Shown: positions 17,290 to 22,982 of the stretch, piece after piece
How positions within the stretch are numbered: position 1 is the stretch's first letter
Layout: every line of letters begins with the position of its first letter
Virus record (IMG/VR): IMGVR_UViG_3300042691_038248
Location: 1 to 23,720 of that record
DNA: 23,720 nt
Source of the DNA: a virus
Strand: one strand, 5' to 3'
Program-made: the position numbers and the translations under genes
The notes under the pieces: generated by a model
The model's database searches: none
The model's input: the letters and a program-made list of their open reading frames with translations, nothing else
What the model was told of the DNA's origin: nothing

Positions 17290-17358
17290 ATCTGACTTCT
17301 GCACTTTCCCATCTCACCGCAGGTGACGATGGGTTTCTGCAGGACTCAACATCCTGCT
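17290..17358 (+). promoter_or_regulatory. Duplicated structured RNA element, copy 1
   Basis: CTGCA (17299-17303) can pair with TGCAG (17338-17342), enclosing a hairpin CCCAT...ATGGG (17308-17333) with inner TCACC-gca-GGTGA. Alternatively GCAGGA (17339-17344) pairs with TCCTGC (17352-17357) around loop CTCAACA. Strand two is shared, so the two folds exclude each other. Copy 2 at 17812-17890 has near-identical ends but a different inner hairpin. It lies after the 67-aa gene and before the SSB-like gene. No T-run follows, so it is not a simple terminator. Confidence 0.7.
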
Positions 17359-17382: not shown

Positions 17383-17814
17383 ATGACTACTCCTGTCTCT
17401 GACACCACTGGTCTCAAGCAGTACGCTGACTCATCCCACGTCCAATTCCAAGGACGAGTTGCGTTTATCAAGCAATTCGTCAATGAAGAGGACAACAGTG
17501 AGTTCATTGCTGTGAAGATGATTCACAACTTGAACTCCATGGTCAGCGTCACGCTCACGTTTACCAACAACAACGGACTTAACACAGCTTTCACCAACGG
17601 CAACCTCGTCGTTGGTCAAGAGCTTCGTGTCTACGGCCGTATCAATGGTATCCGTACGACCTACATGGATGAGCAGAACAATCTCCAGGTACTCAAGCGG
17701 CCTGAGATCCAGCTGATCGTGAAGGATTACGAGTTTGGTCGTAAACCTGCACCCAAGCAGGAAGCTCAGGTCGGTGCTGTAGCCCAGCCAACGCTGGACG
17801 AGATTGCATTCTGA
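17383..17814 (+). CDS. SSB-like OB-fold protein
   Basis: A 143-aa protein starting MTTPVSDTTGLKQYADSSHV. Residues about 20-115 alternate strands in OB-fold style: VQFQGRVAFIKQF, EFIAVKMIHNL, SVTLTFTNNN, then NLVVGQELRVYGRI and EIQLIVKDYEF. The G-Q-x-(L/V)-x-V-x-G-(R/K) motif is characteristic of single-stranded DNA binding proteins. The linker is Lys/Pro/Gln-rich and the end TLDEIAF resembles the acidic tip (DDIPF in bacterial SSB) that recruits partners. It would coat single strands during phage replication. An upstream extension to 17323 was rejected because ATG 17383 follows the leader repeat. SSB is the best guess; another OB-fold protein remains possible. Confidence 0.68.
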   Translation: MTTPVSDTTGLKQYADSSHVQFQGRVAFIKQFVNEEDNSEFIAVKMIHNLNSMVSVTLTFTNNNGLNTAFTNGNLVVGQELRVYGRINGIRTTYMDEQNNLQVLKRPEIQLIVKDYEFGRKPAPKQEAQVGAVAQPTLDEIAF

Positions 17815-17890
17815 CTCCTGCACTTAACCCTTCCGTTTGATACGAATTCGTATCGGACGGTGGGTTTTCTGCAGGACTCAACATCCTGCT
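17812..17890 (+). promoter_or_regulatory. Duplicated structured RNA element, copy 2
   Basis: CCTGCA (17817-17822) can pair with TGCAGG (17870-17875), enclosing ACCC/GGGT and a 14-bp hairpin (17833-17860) centred on the palindrome GATACGAATTCGTATC. Alternatively GCAGGA (17871-17876) pairs with TCCTGC (17884-17889) around CTCAACA. Outer strands match copy 1 almost exactly (TCTGACTYCTGCACTT, then CTGCAGGACTCAACATCCTG) while the inner hairpin is a different sequence with the same shape. The element starts on the stop codon of the SSB-like gene. Confidence 0.72.
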
Positions 17891-18551: not shown

Positions 18552-18983
18552 ATGGAAGCTCTCAGTCAACTCGATGTGACCAACCCGGATCACGTCTCAG
18601 TGATTACAAGGGACAACAAGGTCACGGTATCTGTCGTGAAAGACGGCACGTCCGTAACCCTTGGTTTCCAACTTAAGGACACCATCTTCAATACGACCCC
18701 CAGGCCCCCGCTCCAACAGCCAGCACCACAGACAATGGCTGTTATAGGGACCAAGGAAGTCATCATGAGGGAACCGAAGAGGAACTTCCGTTCTTGGGAT
18801 GGTCCCTCCAAGCTCAACACTCAGAAGGTGAAGGAGATTCGTATGCTCCTGGCAGACGAGAACCTTCGCCGTTCTTGTGGAACCCTCACCAATTTCTACA
18901 ACGTTATTGGTAAGAAGTTCGGAGTTACTGGCTGCAGCATCTCCAATATTGCCCGTGGCATTTCTTGGAGGGATGTCAAGTAA
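18552..18983 (+). CDS. Helix-turn-helix protein, probable regulator
   Basis: A 143-aa protein starting MEALSQLDVTNPDHVSVITR. The N-terminal 45 residues form beta hairpins (RDNKVTVSVVKDGTSVTLGF), the middle is a Pro-rich linker, and residues about 85-143 look like a DNA-binding helix-turn-helix of the kind found after homing endonucleases (NUMOD-like): KLNTQKVKEIRMLLAD, then IGKKFGVTGCSISNIARGIS, W and DV. The pattern K-x-F-G-V-(S/T)-x-x-x-I-x-x-I-x-x-G-x-x-W is typical. No HNH or GIY-YIG nuclease is present, so a small regulator is likelier. CTCAACTC precedes the ATG; a longer frame from 18489 would start in the hairpin loop. Confidence 0.68.
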   Translation: MEALSQLDVTNPDHVSVITRDNKVTVSVVKDGTSVTLGFQLKDTIFNTTPRPPLQQPAPQTMAVIGTKEVIMREPKRNFRSWDGPSKLNTQKVKEIRMLLADENLRRSCGTLTNFYNVIGKKFGVTGCSISNIARGISWRDVK

Positions 18984-19039
18984 ATCCATTCGTAATACAT
19001 ATGTACTGCGTCTTACTCAATAATGGGGTGACACTACCC

Positions 19040-19068
19040 ACGTCCTGAGTACGACGTTAAACTGCTCA
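19040..19068 (+). promoter_or_regulatory. Compact H-type pseudoknot, copy 1
   Basis: Stem 1 is ACGTC (19040-19044) with GACGT (19053-19057). Loop bases TGAGTA (19046-19051) pair with TGCTCA (19063-19068) to give stem 2, including one G-U pair. Loop lengths of 1, 1 and 5 nt fit the geometry of a stable H-type pseudoknot. Copy 2 at 21211-21239 replaces the G-U by G-C. It ends 22 nt before the ATG of the 43-aa gene; a possible hairpin GGGT/ACCC and the palindrome TACATATGTA (18996-19005) lie just upstream. Confidence 0.7.
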
Positions 19069-19090
19069 ATTCTTTTATCCAATTCAACTC

Positions 19091-19222
19091 ATGACTCAAC
19101 AACTCGACGAGAACTACAACGCTGATTTGCTTGATGCCATCGCTGACATGGTATATGAACAAGAGCAAGCCATGCGTGAAACAGATCCTGAGCAATGGGA
19201 GGGATATGACGACCAAGCGTAA
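19091..19222 (+). CDS. 43-aa acidic peptide
   Basis: A 43-aa acidic peptide starting MTQQLDENYNADLLDAIADM and ending EQWEGYDDQA. It is helical and strongly negative, a composition seen in DNA-mimic or inhibitor peptides, though that is speculation. The leader TTCAACTC lies directly before the ATG and pseudoknot copy 1 is 22 nt further upstream. The end overlaps a second possible gene at 19206. Read directly from the sequence. Confidence 0.65.
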   Translation: MTQQLDENYNADLLDAIADMVYEQEQAMRETDPEQWEGYDDQA

Positions 19223-19715
19223 GGATCAATACCAAGAAGATGACATCATCATTGTCATCATCGCAATCATTTCAATCATCATTACGGAGTTCATCTCATG
19301 CTTCATCCAGAAACCCAAGCCATTGCAGAAACCTTTGGCTACGTCCCCTTCTCCGAAGAAGAAGGCACAGAGCAGTTCCAGGCAGACATCACCTACACCC
19401 CTGGTGACACCAAGCGTGAACCTAGGACAGGAGATGTCAAAGCCGACAAGCAAGGCACGCTCTGGGCCTACTGGAAGCCAAAGCACGCCGAAGAGGACCT
19501 CGAAGGCTGGTACGAAATCCCAGCCAACGAAGACATCGAAGAATGGTCTTTCGATAGTGTCTGCTTCACGCCAGGTGACGACGAGGTCGAACCTGACCAT
19601 CCCGACAGCTGGCTCTCAATCCTTGGACTCATCTAATGGCAACTCATCAAAAGGTTCAACAACCAGCGCTGACTATCAATCAACGCAACCTATACATGTA
19701 CTTCCTAGCTCATAG
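19206..19715 (+). CDS. Possible overprinted TM protein (uncertain)
   Basis: A 169-codon frame starting MTTKRKDQYQEDDIIIVIIA. An Ile-rich membrane helix (about 14-35) is followed by a Ser/Thr/Lys/Pro-rich tail. Its first part covers the otherwise empty 75 bp between the 43-aa and 112-aa genes, and GGAGG lies 3 nt before the ATG, which is close. From 19298 on it overlaps the entire 112-aa gene in another frame. The low-complexity tail could be a shadow of that gene, so either a short leader-type membrane peptide or nothing may be made. It runs 80 nt past the 112-aa gene's stop, overlapping the 83-aa gene too. Confidence 0.3.
   Translation: MTTKRKDQYQEDDIIIVIIAIISIIITEFISCFIQKPKPLQKPLATSPSPKKKAQSSSRQTSPTPLVTPSVNLGQEMSKPTSKARSGPTGSQSTPKRTSKAGTKSQPTKTSKNGLSIVSASRQVTTRSNLTIPTAGSQSLDSSNGNSSKGSTTSADYQSTQPIHVLPSS
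19298..19636 (+). CDS. 112-aa acidic hypothetical protein
   Basis: A 112-aa, very acidic protein starting MLHPETQAIAETFGYVPFSE. Repeated aromatic-acidic stretches (LWAYWKPKHAEEDLEGWYEI, then SFDSVCFTPGDDEVEPDHPD) suggest a small beta-rich fold. TPGD occurs twice (about 34-37 and 90-93). GGAG lies 8 nt before the ATG, a rare Shine-Dalgarno site in this arm. Its stop overlaps the next start (TAATG). Unrecognised; a DNA-mimic anti-defence protein is conceivable from the charge only. Confidence 0.72.
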   Translation: MLHPETQAIAETFGYVPFSEEEGTEQFQADITYTPGDTKREPRTGDVKADKQGTLWAYWKPKHAEEDLEGWYEIPANEDIEEWSFDSVCFTPGDDEVEPDHPDSWLSILGLI

Positions 19716-19887
19716 GAGGAAGAATGGCAGCCACCCATGTTTTGTCCCCAGACTAAACATGCAGAACTCACGTATGGCTGACTACATCCAAGCTTTGAAG
19801 AAGCTTGAAGAATACGGGTTGATTTCCGTTGATCGCAGCGCTGATAATTACACAGCCTGGATCATGAAAGAACCTACCAACACATAA
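19636..19887 (+). CDS. Small winged-helix-like protein
   Basis: An 83-aa protein starting MATHQKVQQPALTINQRNLY. Helical segments NQRNLYMYFLAHRRKNG, SRMADYIQALKKLEEYGLIS and the strand VDRSADNYTAWIM fit the order of a small winged helix-turn-helix, where KKLEEYGLI is the typical end of the recognition helix before the wing. This would be a DNA-binding regulator. It overlaps the previous stop by one base (TAATG), so the two are co-translated. The assignment is by pattern only. Confidence 0.58.
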   Translation: MATHQKVQQPALTINQRNLYMYFLAHRRKNGSHPCFVPRLNMQNSRMADYIQALKKLEEYGLISVDRSADNYTAWIMKEPTNT

Positions 19888-19896
19888 GTTTTACTT

Positions 19897-19972
19897 ATAT
19901 CTGGTATGGGATATTCCTTGATAACTACAAGGCTATCCCCCCAGACCCCCGCAAGGGGAGTACCAGGAATAT
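19897..19972 (+). ncRNA. Candidate three-way-junction RNA element
   Basis: Closing stem CTGGTA (19901-19906)/TACCAG (19961-19966), extended by ATAT/ATAT after a 2-nt bulge. Inside are hairpin GGGATA/TATCCC (19908-19939) continuing into CCTTG/CAAGG with loop ATAACTA, and hairpin CCCC-GCAA-GGGG (19947-19958) capped by a GNRA tetraloop. It fills most of the 142-bp gap between the winged-helix-like and 96-aa genes. Could be a cis-acting leader of the next gene or a processed RNA. It did not match any riboswitch or ribozyme consensus I know. Confidence 0.6.
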
Positions 19973-20029
19973 ATCTTCTATTAGTAGATGTATTCCTTCT
20001 TCAATTCATTTACTTACCAACTCAACACC

Positions 20030-20320
20030 ATGACAACACCAACTACCTATCCAACCATCAACTGGAAACAGAATGAGTATGTCTACGTTCAACAAGCATT
20101 GACCATCCTCAAGGATGTCATGGCTCGTGAGGACAAGCGTCATCAGATGGATCAACATCTCACACCTTCGATGTATGCACTGCTCGAAGAGGAGATTATC
20201 CCATTGCTAGAGAACGAATTAGACGGTGACTACGCACCAGATGAAATCGGTGAACCACCGCTGACTTCAGCTGAAATGCACACTGCTGCATGGAAGCAAC
20301 ACCAGCAAATGCACTCGTAA
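20030..20320 (+). CDS. 96-aa hypothetical helical protein
   Basis: A 96-aa protein starting MTTPTTYPTINWKQNEYVYV. It is helical in the middle (QQALTILKDVMAREDKRHQM) with an acidic region (LLEEEIIPLLENELDGDYAP) and a His/Gln-rich end. I chose ATG 20030 because the leader ACTCAACACC stands directly before it; a frame from 19988 would start inside a hairpin. It lies between the two three-way-junction elements. Not recognised. Confidence 0.7.
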   Translation: MTTPTTYPTINWKQNEYVYVQQALTILKDVMAREDKRHQMDQHLTPSMYALLEEEIIPLLENELDGDYAPDEIGEPPLTSAEMHTAAWKQHQQMHS

Positions 20321-20334
20321 ATCTTAAGGCAATA

Positions 20335-20401
20335 TGAAGAAGCAGGGGCTGGGTCGCATTAGACCCTAAGTCAGGTGCGGCCTGACGCCCTTGCTTCATC
20401 A
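20335..20401 (+). ncRNA. Candidate structured RNA, long-stem three-way junction
   Basis: Stem 1 is an 11-bp helix, GAAGCAGGGGC (20339-20349) with GCCCTTGCTTC (20387-20397), with one G-U pair, extended by TGA/TCA past an A-A mismatch. It encloses GGGTC-gcatta-GACCC (20351-20366) and GTCAGG-tgcgg-CCTGAC (20370-20386). Linkers are 1, 3 and 0 nt, so stems 1 and 3 can stack. Nearly every base is paired, which is strong evidence for a functional RNA. It starts 14 nt after the 96-aa gene. No T-run or tRNA-like core; not a known class to me. Confidence 0.68.
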
Positions 20402-20406
20402 TTGAT

Positions 20407-20437
20407 ATTCCGATGGTTGCCTGAAAACCAACGGAAT
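20407..20437 (+). promoter_or_regulatory. Hairpin following the three-way junction
   Basis: ATTCCG/CGGAAT (20407-20437) continues, after a 2x2 internal loop, into GGTT/AACC with loop GCCTGAA. CCCCTTTT follows, so it might be a weak terminator for the upstream messages, releasing the preceding structured RNA at its 3' end. The T-run is short and displaced by four C, so the terminator reading is uncertain. Confidence 0.45.
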
Positions 20438-20452
20438 CCCCTTTTAAACAAG

Positions 20453-20508
20453 CTGCTGGCCAGCAGGTCCCTGCAGGAGACGTGCTCATTGTAACCACAT
20501 TGCAATGT
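20453..20508. repeat. Cluster of three perfect palindromes
   Basis: CTGCTGGCCAGCAG (20453-20466), CCTGCAGG (20470-20477) and ACATTGCAATGT (20497-20508) lie within 56 bp of non-coding DNA. GCTGGCC (20456-20462) can also pair with GGCCAGC (20513-20519). They could be operators, an origin-associated structure or restriction-site-like sequences. No iterons or AT-rich unwinding region accompany them, so an origin is only one option. Confidence 0.5.
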
Positions 20509-20564
20509 CCTTGGCCAGCCCTTGACAACCCTGGTAGACTCAACGCACTCAACTTAATTCAATT

Positions 20565-20756
20565 ATGGACATCAACTTTGATCGAACCATCCATGGTGTC
20601 AACATTACTGAAAATGGCATCAAGTCCTACACCAAATCAATTCAGCTTGGGCCGTTTCAGCTAACGCTGAACGCCCGTAAGTCTGGTGTCTTGGGATCGA
20701 TATCAATCCCTGGCACCGGCTTGTCCAAGCGCAACATCCGTCTTTTTGATTTCTAA
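20565..20756 (+). CDS. 63-aa DUF4236-like peptide
   Basis: A 63-aa protein starting MDINFDRTIHGVNITENGIK. The part IQLGPFQLTLNARKSGVLGS, then ISIPGTGLSKR, follows the DUF4236 pattern: (K/R)-x-hydrophobic-x-L-G-P-x-(R/Q)-L-x-L-(S/N)-x-(K/R)-S-G-V, a short insert and G-(I/T)-P-G-T-G-L-S-(Y/K)-R. DUF4236 occurs in bacteria and phages and has no known function. TTGACA at 20522 has no matching -10. A long leader (20538-20564) with two ACTCAAC units precedes the ATG. Confidence 0.7.
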   Translation: MDINFDRTIHGVNITENGIKSYTKSIQLGPFQLTLNARKSGVLGSISIPGTGLSKRNIRLFDF

Positions 20757-20763
20757 TCAACTC

Positions 20764-20949
20764 ATGTCAGCTCAATCCGATTGCATTGATCTGTTTGATC
20801 GGATCAATCTTGCTAACTGTGCAATGGAACGTGCACGTAATAACGTTCTTGACCAAGATCGTTTCTACGCTGAGTACAAGACCGCAAGGTTTTGGACTAA
20901 GTACCGTTGCATGATTACCAAAGAATACTCCTACGTGGATTACACCTGA
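20764..20949 (+). CDS. 61-aa hypothetical protein
   Basis: A 61-aa helical protein starting MSAQSDCIDLFDRINLANCA. Asp, Arg, Tyr and Cys are frequent and the end is aromatic (CMITKEYSYVDYT). TCAACTC links the previous stop to this ATG, so the leader repeat also functions in a 7-nt intergenic space. An in-frame extension to 20686 lies inside the 63-aa gene and was rejected. Its stop overlaps the next start (TGATG). Unknown. Confidence 0.66.
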   Translation: MSAQSDCIDLFDRINLANCAMERARNNVLDQDRFYAEYKTARFWTKYRCMITKEYSYVDYT

Positions 20950-21206
20950 TGTCTGTACTTGCAATCGAAGACACCACTATCGACGGAATCAATGTCACCG
21001 TTACAGCAGTTGTTGACGAAATGCGGTTGCTTTACAGGGCAACTTATTTCGACCCTGAAGAATGGGCTCCTGCATTATGCACAGCTTCTTTCGAGCTGGA
21101 TGAAGGAGAACAAGTTCCTACTGACGAAGATGGCTTCTGTAGCTATCTTGATTCACTCGATCTTAACTGGCAACTGCTCGACACCTCCGACTGGAATCTA
21201 GATTGA
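20949..21206 (+). CDS. 85-aa acidic hypothetical protein
   Basis: An 85-aa, strongly acidic protein starting MSVLAIEDTTIDGINVTVTA. Predicted strands in the first half (NVTVTAVVDEMRLLYRATYF) precede an Asp/Glu/Leu/Trp-rich end (SLDLNWQLLDTSDWNLD). Overlaps the preceding stop by one base and is followed by pseudoknot copy 2, whose first base is 5 nt after the stop. Acidic small proteins are common anti-restriction candidates, but nothing specific supports that here. Confidence 0.68.
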   Translation: MSVLAIEDTTIDGINVTVTAVVDEMRLLYRATYFDPEEWAPALCTASFELDEGEQVPTDEDGFCSYLDSLDLNWQLLDTSDWNLD

Positions 21207-21210
21207 TTCC

Positions 21211-21239
21211 ACGTCCTGAGCATGACGTTAAACTGCTCA
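21211..21239 (+). promoter_or_regulatory. Compact H-type pseudoknot, copy 2
   Basis: Stem 1 ACGTC (21211-21215)/GACGT (21224-21228). Stem 2 TGAGCA (21217-21222)/TGCTCA (21234-21239), now fully Watson-Crick. Loops are 1, 1 and 5 nt, as in copy 1 (19040-19068). The two copies differ only at one stem-2 position, which keeps pairing, and at one unpaired loop base. It ends 27 nt before the ATG of the PcfJ-like gene. Confidence 0.72.
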
Positions 21240-21266
21240 ACACTACGAACTCACTCCGAACTCACC

Positions 21267-22982
21267 ATGCATTTTCAACTTCCCTCCAACCTACAAACTG
21301 AACTGCTTGCGTATGATCCAACACTCAAGAAACTAGCGCAGCAGAACAAACCTAAGACACAAACCAAGAAGGCTAAGTATCCACTTGGTAATGTCGGTGC
21401 ATTAATTCCAACGGAAGTCATCCGTGAAGCCATTCAGCAGGATGCTATAGATCACATCAACAGCGTTGGTGTAGCTGATCGCTATCAATTGTTTACTCGC
21501 TTCCAGGATCAGAAGGCTGTGCCTTGTGCCATCCTGTATCACTTCGAGCAATGCTGGTATGCAGCATGGCTCCCGCCCAAAGGCAAAGAGAACGAGTATA
21601 TCTATGGCTATGCCATGGCATTCAAGAACACCAGCACTGCACTTAAAGTAATCCCTCGTCAGATTGTTAATCGTTGTGAGGAATTTGAACTGCGTACCGT
21701 TGGTCGCAGTGAAATGTATTACCACACACAACTCATCAACAAGTATGACATCATCAACGGTAACGACGGTCGCAACTGGCGTAACCTAGGCGTTACCAAT
21801 TACTACAAGAAGTCACGTGATCTAGCAGAAGCACTCACTAAATTTGAAGATCAACTACGGGAAACAATTCCATCCTGGGCTGATGCCAGGGGATTGTTTG
21901 ACCGTATCAAATGTACATCTATTGCTGATGCACTAGAACTCAATAAGCTTCAGTCATACTGGGCTATTGGTAAAGTCAACAAGGAAGAGTGGCTGCCCTC
22001 AGCTGATAACTTCTTCCGTATTGTTGATTACTACACCCCACTGCCTGGCTACGAAGGATGTGAATACAAAGATGTAGCACGCATCCGTCACATCGTAGAC
22101 AAGCCGTTCTTCCGCCGCTGGATTCAACAGCGTTGCGATGAAGCTATTGCAAACTACAACAACCCAGACAACAAGTATCTCAAGTACATCAAGGCACCAT
22201 GGAAACAGATTGCACATTTGTGTTACACCATCAATACTGTTCACACCCTATGGCCTGACGCACCACTTGATTACTATCAAACGCATCTAAATGTCTTGCT
22301 CAACATTCGCTTGCGTCAAGGCGCCAATGAAGCTGCAGTGCAATGGATCCATAGGCATATGAACATTGCTTCCTACTTCAACATGCTTGATAAGCACTAC
22401 AAACGTATGCTCAAGGAAGCAGCTAGTAGCCGGTACACCTATCTATTTGATGCAGATCTCAACTGCTATCAGTTCACCTTCAGTGACTGGACTGACACCT
22501 TATCCATGCTATCTCGTGTACTAGAAGCTGGTGTAACCATCGAACCACCAAAGCGTTGGCGCATTGAAGAATTCCATGATCACGTCCAGGCAGAAGCCTG
22601 GAAGATCAAGAACCCTAATGAGGTATTGCCCCAGGATTTATTCCCTAATCCTGTTAAGGTTCAACTCGATGATCAATCATGGTCATTCTTCCAGCCTGTT
22701 GATACCCATCAACTTGCCATGTGGGGTCAGGCCGTACGCAACTGCGTTGGCTCTGCATCCCATTACGCTGAGGACTGCAAGAAGAAGAAGCACTTCATCG
22801 TGCTCTGTATGCTCGATGGCAAACCTCAGTTCACCATTCAACTTATTGTTGATATGGGCATGATGTCCGTCAAGCAAATCGCTGGTACTTCTAACCAACG
22901 GTTGACGGACGAACAGAAGGAACAGTACACCGCAGCATTCAAGCTTGCATTGCAAGAACGTGAATCTGCGCTAAAGTCCTGA
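21267..22982 (+). CDS. PcfJ-like protein
   Basis: A 571-aa protein starting MHFQLPSNLQTELLAYDPTL. The last 100 residues carry the PcfJ-family pattern: M-x-x-C-V-G-S with a following Tyr (WGQAVRNCVGSASHYAEDC, about 486-504), an F-I-V-L strand, then (K/P)-x-x-(A/F)-T-I-(E/Q) (DGKPQFTIQLIV, about 517-528) and V-x-Q-x-x-G-x-x-N (VKQIAGTSN, about 535-543). PcfJ was named on a conjugative Enterococcus plasmid; relatives are widespread in phages and mobile elements and their biochemical role is unclear. The N-terminal 460 residues have many Trp and Tyr and no motif I recognise. ATG 21267 was chosen because the CTCAAC-type leader precedes it. Confidence 0.75.
   Translation: MHFQLPSNLQTELLAYDPTLKKLAQQNKPKTQTKKAKYPLGNVGALIPTEVIREAIQQDAIDHINSVGVADRYQLFTRFQDQKAVPCAILYHFEQCWYAAWLPPKGKENEYIYGYAMAFKNTSTALKVIPRQIVNRCEEFELRTVGRSEMYYHTQLINKYDIINGNDGRNWRNLGVTNYYKKSRDLAEALTKFEDQLRETIPSWADARGLFDRIKCTSIADALELNKLQSYWAIGKVNKEEWLPSADNFFRIVDYYTPLPGYEGCEYKDVARIRHIVDKPFFRRWIQQRCDEAIANYNNPDNKYLKYIKAPWKQIAHLCYTINTVHTLWPDAPLDYYQTHLNVLLNIRLRQGANEAAVQWIHRHMNIASYFNMLDKHYKRMLKEAASSRYTYLFDADLNCYQFTFSDWTDTLSMLSRVLEAGVTIEPPKRWRIEEFHDHVQAEAWKIKNPNEVLPQDLFPNPVKVQLDDQSWSFFQPVDTHQLAMWGQAVRNCVGSASHYAEDCKKKKHFIVLCMLDGKPQFTIQLIVDMGMMSVKQIAGTSNQRLTDEQKEQYTAAFKLALQERESALKS

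Follow-up and report, generated by a model that had tools for sequence, protein, structure and literature searches.

The two 29-nucleotide (nt) repeats found in IMG/VR virus record IMGVR_UViG_3300042691_038248 are members of a family of compact H-type pseudoknots that lie between genes of tailed phages. The whole stretch of this record that was analysed, 23,720 nt long and encoding a terminase, is called the window below. Covariation of the stems and the distribution of the copies establish the family and show that the element is a real RNA structure, one that is unlisted in Rfam 15. The family has at least several hundred distinct copies, in phages of cyanobacteria, Firmicutes, Actinobacteria, Proteobacteria and other groups, and is apparently unnamed. 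As to its function, our preferred suggestion, to which we give a probability of roughly 0.45, is that the knot is a mechanically stable barrier that shields the upstream mRNA, at its 3' end, against 3'-to-5' exonucleases.

Structure and covariation of the pseudoknot family

From 5' to 3', the element consists of stem 1 (S1, 5 bp), a loop 1 of a single C, stem 2 (S2, 6 bp), a linker of 1 nt, the 3' strand of S1, loop 3 (TAAAC) and the 3' strand of S2. Copy 1 (19040-19068, plus strand), which rests on the sequence, exact pattern matches and covariation in the family, has S1 at 19040-19044/19053-19057, loop 1 at 19045, S2 at 19046-19051/19063-19068, the linker at 19052 and loop 3 at 19058-19062. 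Copy 2 (21211-21239, plus strand), supported by the sequence, pattern matches and its retention at homologous loci, has these parts at 21211-21215/21224-21228, 21216, 21217-21222/21234-21239, 21223 and 21229-21233, respectively. ACGTC-N8-GACGT has exactly two matches in the window, namely these copies, which belong to a 32-nt repeat (19038-19069 and 21209-21240) of 94% identity. As a preliminary description of this DNA had stated, the copies stand at these positions, share stems and loops and differ by a T-to-C change at position 11, through which S2 gains a C-G pair in place of U-G, and a C-to-T change at position 13 in the unpaired linker; an ATG does follow at the reported distance, 22 nt past copy 1 (ATG at 19091) and 27 nt past copy 2 (ATG at 21267).

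The search of relatives for the pattern, which that description had proposed, yielded a large family. An exact-pattern scan of IMG/VR found 26 contigs, and relaxed scans (S1 free, S2 free, or a different S2) found at least 120 contigs each; with the loops left free only three extra loci appeared, in which loop 3 is GAAAC, AAAAC or AAATC. The family consensus is NNNNC-C-TGAGYA-N-GNNNN-TAAAC-TRCTCA, together with covarying versions. A descriptor with these stems and loops had 275 matches in 2.4 Mb of fetched phage DNA, part of whose loci had been fetched with the same pattern, and none in shuffled DNA. Loop 1 is C in all 48 copies whose selection did not depend on the query patterns. Versions with a 7-bp S2 exist, and the descriptor scan of the fetched phage DNA detected no family with a 5-bp S2 or with a linker of 0 or 2 nt.

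Among the 219 distinct sequences of the set with S1 free, the inner three pairs next to loop 1 are formed in 98-100%, by way of G-C, C-G, A-U and U-A pairs, and the outermost pair in only 27%, so that S1 is effectively a stem of 4 bp. In the set with S2 free (60 distinct sequences), 86% of the S2 pairs are formed. When the 3' strands were swapped between sequences as a control, at most 58% (S1) and 78% (S2) of pairs were formed, and sliding the partner strand gave 25-39%. Two interleaved helices with covariation, which are the test for the H-type class, are therefore present. Stem-breaking changes in homologs, named in the preliminary description as what would speak against its proposal, were looked for and did not occur; instead both stems covary strongly, bearing out its proposal of an H-type pseudoknot that acts as RNA.

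The same conclusion comes from orthologous sites. Loci encoding a homolog of the protein after copy 2 were gathered through protein similarity alone, without regard to the element, and the knot lies upstream at 73 of the 80 loci, a set that includes near-identical contigs and holds 25 distinct sequences. Compensatory changes across the 73 loci affect both stems (TGAGCA/TGCTCA, TGGACA/TGTCCA, CAAGCA/TGCTTA, TGTC/GACA, GGTC/GACC and a 7-bp TAGGTCA/TGACCTA). At 5 of the 7 loci without a knot the upstream coding sequence extends to the start; locus L459 has only a remnant of the knot, and at L462 a 7-bp GC-rich hairpin followed by TTTT stands after the stop in the knot's place.

Nested folding of the 29-mers alone is weak, as expected of programs that cannot model pseudoknots. 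Searching the window against Rfam 15 (up to E = 10) and 12 phage loci (at gathering thresholds) gave no match to the element, although a weak member could be missed by covariance models, which cannot score pseudoknots. Standard RNA-family methods, scoring nested helices only, would miss such a knot. The hammerhead core (CUGANGA...GAAA) is absent from the 29-mer, which has no Rfam ribozyme match. The Pistol ribozyme, with which the element has a GUUAAA string in common, was considered and set aside, as the layout is different and there is no Rfam match. No description of the element was found in the open-access literature, subscription papers being outside the search.

Copies occur in phage records of Synechococcus, Nostoc, Staphylococcus, Streptococcus, Lactobacillus, Bacillus, Geobacillus-type (D6E), Moorella, Mycobacterium, Arthrobacter, Pasteurella and Vibrio; in the S. 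aureus copy S2 is shortened. The descriptor did not bear out BLAST matches in Paracoccus, Cellulosimicrobium and crAss-like phages, and a match in Escherichia phage flopper is not a family member. One scan of GTDB, covering 84,980 species genomes, turned up 37 stretches; in three, copies are spacers of clustered regularly interspaced short palindromic repeat (CRISPR) arrays. These spacers lie in a cyanobacterial and an Ignavibacteria genome (L268, ∼208-236; L276, 1772-1800 and 3033-3061; L282, ∼6750).

Placement relative to stop codons, start codons and processing sites

Copy 2 begins exactly 4 nt past a stop codon (TGA, 21204-21206), a feature overlooked in the preliminary description, and its spacer TTCC (21207-21210, plus strand) has the modal length of the family. 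With the upstream proteins grouped into 218 clusters, the gap between stop and knot is 4-5 nt in 71 clusters and 0-2 nt in none. Against uniform placement within each gap (403 cases), 143 copies were observed at 4-5 nt where 15 were expected, and none at 0-2 nt where 23 were expected; the opposite-strand control is flat, without the peak at 4-5 nt. The orthologous knots lie 4 nt past the stop triplet in 64 of 73 loci, with the start 21-34 nt downstream. Throughout the family the next start codon is mostly 19-35 nt 3' of the knot, and the leaders are unstructured and have no Shine-Dalgarno (SD) sequence. The isolated phage S-EIV1, whose genes are annotated, has four copies, which are 4, 5, 10 and 4 nt past stops and 20-23 nt before starts.

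Start codons are not the only features that follow the knot. In 14 cases the 5' end of a tRNA lies 2-13 nt 3' of it, and no such end falls in the 50 nt upstream. The arrangement recurs in Arthrobacter phage Amigo and Nostoc phage NMeng1, and in a phage tRNA cluster (L376, 6300-8200) a knot stands between tRNA-Lys and tRNA-Arg, 4 nt before the latter. A Polynucleobacter metagenome-assembled genome (L247, 7271-7595) carries two knots ∼270 nt apart with a type III hammerhead immediately behind each, the hammerhead layout suggesting cleavage ∼5-7 nt past the knot, and a hammerhead-like core follows one knot of L030. At L269 (1691-1874) and L297 (2499-2684) the base next to the knot is the first of DUF2800 RNA (RF02960), and knot and RNA may form one module. 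Of 485 copies, 58 have a run of at least five T that starts 0-5 nt past the knot, and most lack such a run; the 12 nt upstream hold just 3. At L398 and L427 the knots form arrays of 9-10 per ∼10 kb, and after every knot a U-tract and then a TATAAT-type promoter precede the small gene that comes next. In phages of Gram-positive hosts the knot follows portal or minor-head genes and precedes those for scaffold and capsid. PHROG annotation of the neighbours, some of which are single-stranded DNA-binding protein (SSB) genes, reveals no common function, each listed upstream or downstream PHROG matching one member only.

Possible roles of the knot in phage operons

We favour a barrier at the 3' end because the copies sit just 5' of processing sites. 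According to this suggestion, the knot would be placed past the stop of a cistron, as near as the terminating ribosome permits, and just 5' of a point at which the RNA is cut or ends, be it the RNase P site of a tRNA, a hammerhead, a U-tract or an intercistronic leader. The geometry of a terminating ribosome leaves such a knot just outside it. Once the downstream part has been cut off, PNPase, RNase R and RNase II of the host would halt at the knot, and the upstream message would persist, stop codon included; groove triples made by loop 1 (its invariant C) and loop 3 (its AAA) would hold the helices firm. Cleavage at the site, stalling of the exonuclease and stability as the selected trait are each presumed here. 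Such a roadblock would explain the tRNA, ribozyme and promoter contexts, the hairpin that replaces the knot at L462, and the spacing to the stop. The converse role, protection of the downstream 5' end, is disfavoured, since cleavage by RNase P or a hammerhead would remove the knot at once.

Hairpins of the repetitive extragenic palindromic (REP) and terminator kinds protect the 3' ends of bacterial mRNAs, and they resemble the knot as stable intercistronic structures shortly past a stop, in many copies per genome; the family differs from them in being a pseudoknot with conserved loops rather than a plain hairpin, and in being phage-borne across phyla. The exoribonuclease-resistant RNAs (xrRNAs) of flaviviruses and plant viruses are knotted folds that stall the 5'-to-3' enzyme Xrn1. 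The likeness to them is in the proposed mode only, a knotted fold stalling a processive exonuclease; the proposed direction is 3'-to-5' and the resistance putative. The fuller claim, that this 29-nt knot of tailed phages from many phyla caps the 3' ends of processed messages as an xrRNA counterpart of opposite direction, is more tentative, and we would put it somewhat lower than the barrier itself. Phage hammerheads may process phage transcripts into gene-length mRNAs (PMC3088659), a setting in which L247 places the knot, and theta ribozymes cut at tRNA 3' ends (PMC10879173). Both are, like the knot, RNA elements at the borders of cistrons or tRNAs, and are thought to process long transcripts; the knot differs in lying 5' of tRNAs and of hammerheads and in having neither a hammerhead core nor a match to an Rfam ribozyme. 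The hammerhead link is not a rule, as PaP3 and Bcep176 have no family member beside a hammerhead.

Several observations weigh against a 3'-end barrier. For most copies only the leader of the next gene is found downstream, with no recognisable cleavage signal, and PaP3, a phage reported to have hammerheads, has no family member. Copy 1 has its nearest stop 56 nt upstream and not 4 nt. The highly expressed scaffold and capsid genes that follow the knot could just as well point to an action on the downstream message, and the tight packing against neighbours could stem from genome compaction alone.

The spacing to the stop is explained equally well if the knot faces the ribosome, blocking post-termination drift or tuning termination and re-initiation so as to insulate neighbouring frames. 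When the stop occupies the A site of a ribosome, a knot 4-5 nt past it would be at the mRNA entry, which suits the sharp peak and the empty class at 0-2 nt, and the peak of start codons at 19-35 nt is just outside the footprint of an initiating ribosome. However, there is no frame to insulate before tRNAs, within the tRNA cluster of L376 or in the pre-promoter arrays of L398 and L427, and copy 1 is far from a stop; read-through, moreover, is made unlikely by stops that are mostly TAA, often with T next, and by in-frame extensions of a median of 17 codons. We regard this role as unlikely, if still worth considering. Those stops and short extensions, and the elements before tRNAs, also led us to reject programmed read-through or frameshifting. 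Luteovirus-type frameshifting pseudoknots such as that of beet western yellows virus (BWYV) measure 26-29 nt, have a short, C-bearing first loop and an A-rich loop in the minor groove of stem 1, and keep a spacer of a few nt from the codon in the ribosomal A site. The family shares their size, both loop traits and the short spacer, but has neither a slippery site nor a read-through extension, and it follows true stops and also precedes tRNAs and ribozymes. Were the knot to guard mRNA 3' ends or to gate ribosomes at stops, it would be a general, portable control element of phage operons and would help to explain how selected pieces of long, processed phage transcripts are stabilised, a question raised by the hammerhead and theta ribozymes beside phage genes and tRNAs.

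The preliminary description, right as to a pseudoknot acting as RNA, had further suggested that it binds a protein or ligand or shields the start, and this part is less well supported; the knot may nonetheless have a protein partner. A protein or ligand site controlling downstream translation, in the manner of the T4 gene 32 pseudoknot or a riboswitch, would agree with the shared topology and 1-nt first loop, the invariant loop bases (C and AAAC), the unstructured, SD-less leaders with starts 19-35 nt downstream, and the SSB genes among the neighbours. Placement, however, tracks the stop and not the start, and the downstream genes are unrelated; they do not form the single pathway expected of a riboswitch, as the listed PHROGs have one member each. 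The same loop bases recur across hosts of several bacterial phyla, and the knot is also followed by tRNAs, hammerheads and U-tracts, contexts that offer no start for it to shield. With the tRNA, ribozyme and promoter contexts left unexplained, a regulator of the start site is disfavoured, and we hold it to be quite improbable. The leader pseudoknot of T4, T2 and RB69 gene 32, possibly the only viral pseudoknot serving translational autoregulation (PMC3014915), is likewise an H-type knot in phage mRNA near a gene boundary, with a very short loop 1 over a stem of 6-7 bp, but it is the gp32 operator and lies ∼67 nt before one gene, that for SSB. The present family is set apart by position and loops, being 4-5 nt past the stops of many genes in many phyla; in the window the knots are followed by a 43-aa open reading frame (ORF) and a PcfJ-like gene instead of an SSB gene, and elsewhere by diverse genes. 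An element acting in transcription, either an unusual intrinsic terminator or pause site made of knot and U-tract, or a put-like antiterminator acting on RNA polymerase, appears about as doubtful: the T runs past the knot, the promoters at L398 and L427 and the terminator-like hairpin at L462 speak for it, but most copies have no U-tract and lie inside operons or before tRNAs that need to be transcribed, and many copies per operon are unexpected of a put-like site. The idea of a knot at +1 of T4-like late transcripts was dropped, as the TAAATA upstream of cyanophage copies consists largely of stop codons and the aligned flanks have no general promoter. Finally, a DNA operator or other DNA-level repeat without a role in RNA, for which one might cite that both stems are inverted repeats in DNA, is contradicted by the covarying stems and thus highly improbable; the interleaved covariation of two stems, a placement that depends on the strand of the genes and the constancy of the single-stranded loops fit RNA.

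Genes and other repeats around the two copies

Copy 2 is preceded by a small ORF (20949-21206, plus strand; from the ORF list and sequence), whose TGA is the stop described above and which has no Pfam or PHROG match. It is followed by a gene for a PcfJ-like protein of 571 aa (21267-22982, plus strand; phrog_16315), whose PF14284 match (6e-6) is just above the curated cut-off. Homologs of this gene occur in many freshwater viral contigs, and it is conserved in cyanophages of the S-EIV1 type. Upstream of copy 1 is an ORF (18552-18983, plus strand; from the ORF list and sequence) with a weak DUF2092 match below the cut-off, and downstream is the ORF of 43 aa (19091-19222, plus strand), recognised from the sequence, homologs of which follow the element in other contigs as well (e.g. 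L064 and L180).

Homologs of copy 1 (e.g. L003, L006 and L014; region 18984-19039 in the window) have a GC-rich hairpin, CACCCC-ACAA-TGGGGTG, ∼9 nt 5' of the pseudoknot. The window also holds a second repeated element, a 28-nt hairpin (GCAGGA-CTCAACA-TCCTGC) at 17331-17358 and 17863-17890, the copies being 96% identical. They flank an ORF (17383-17814) without a Pfam or PHROG match, which from its look we take to encode an SSB.

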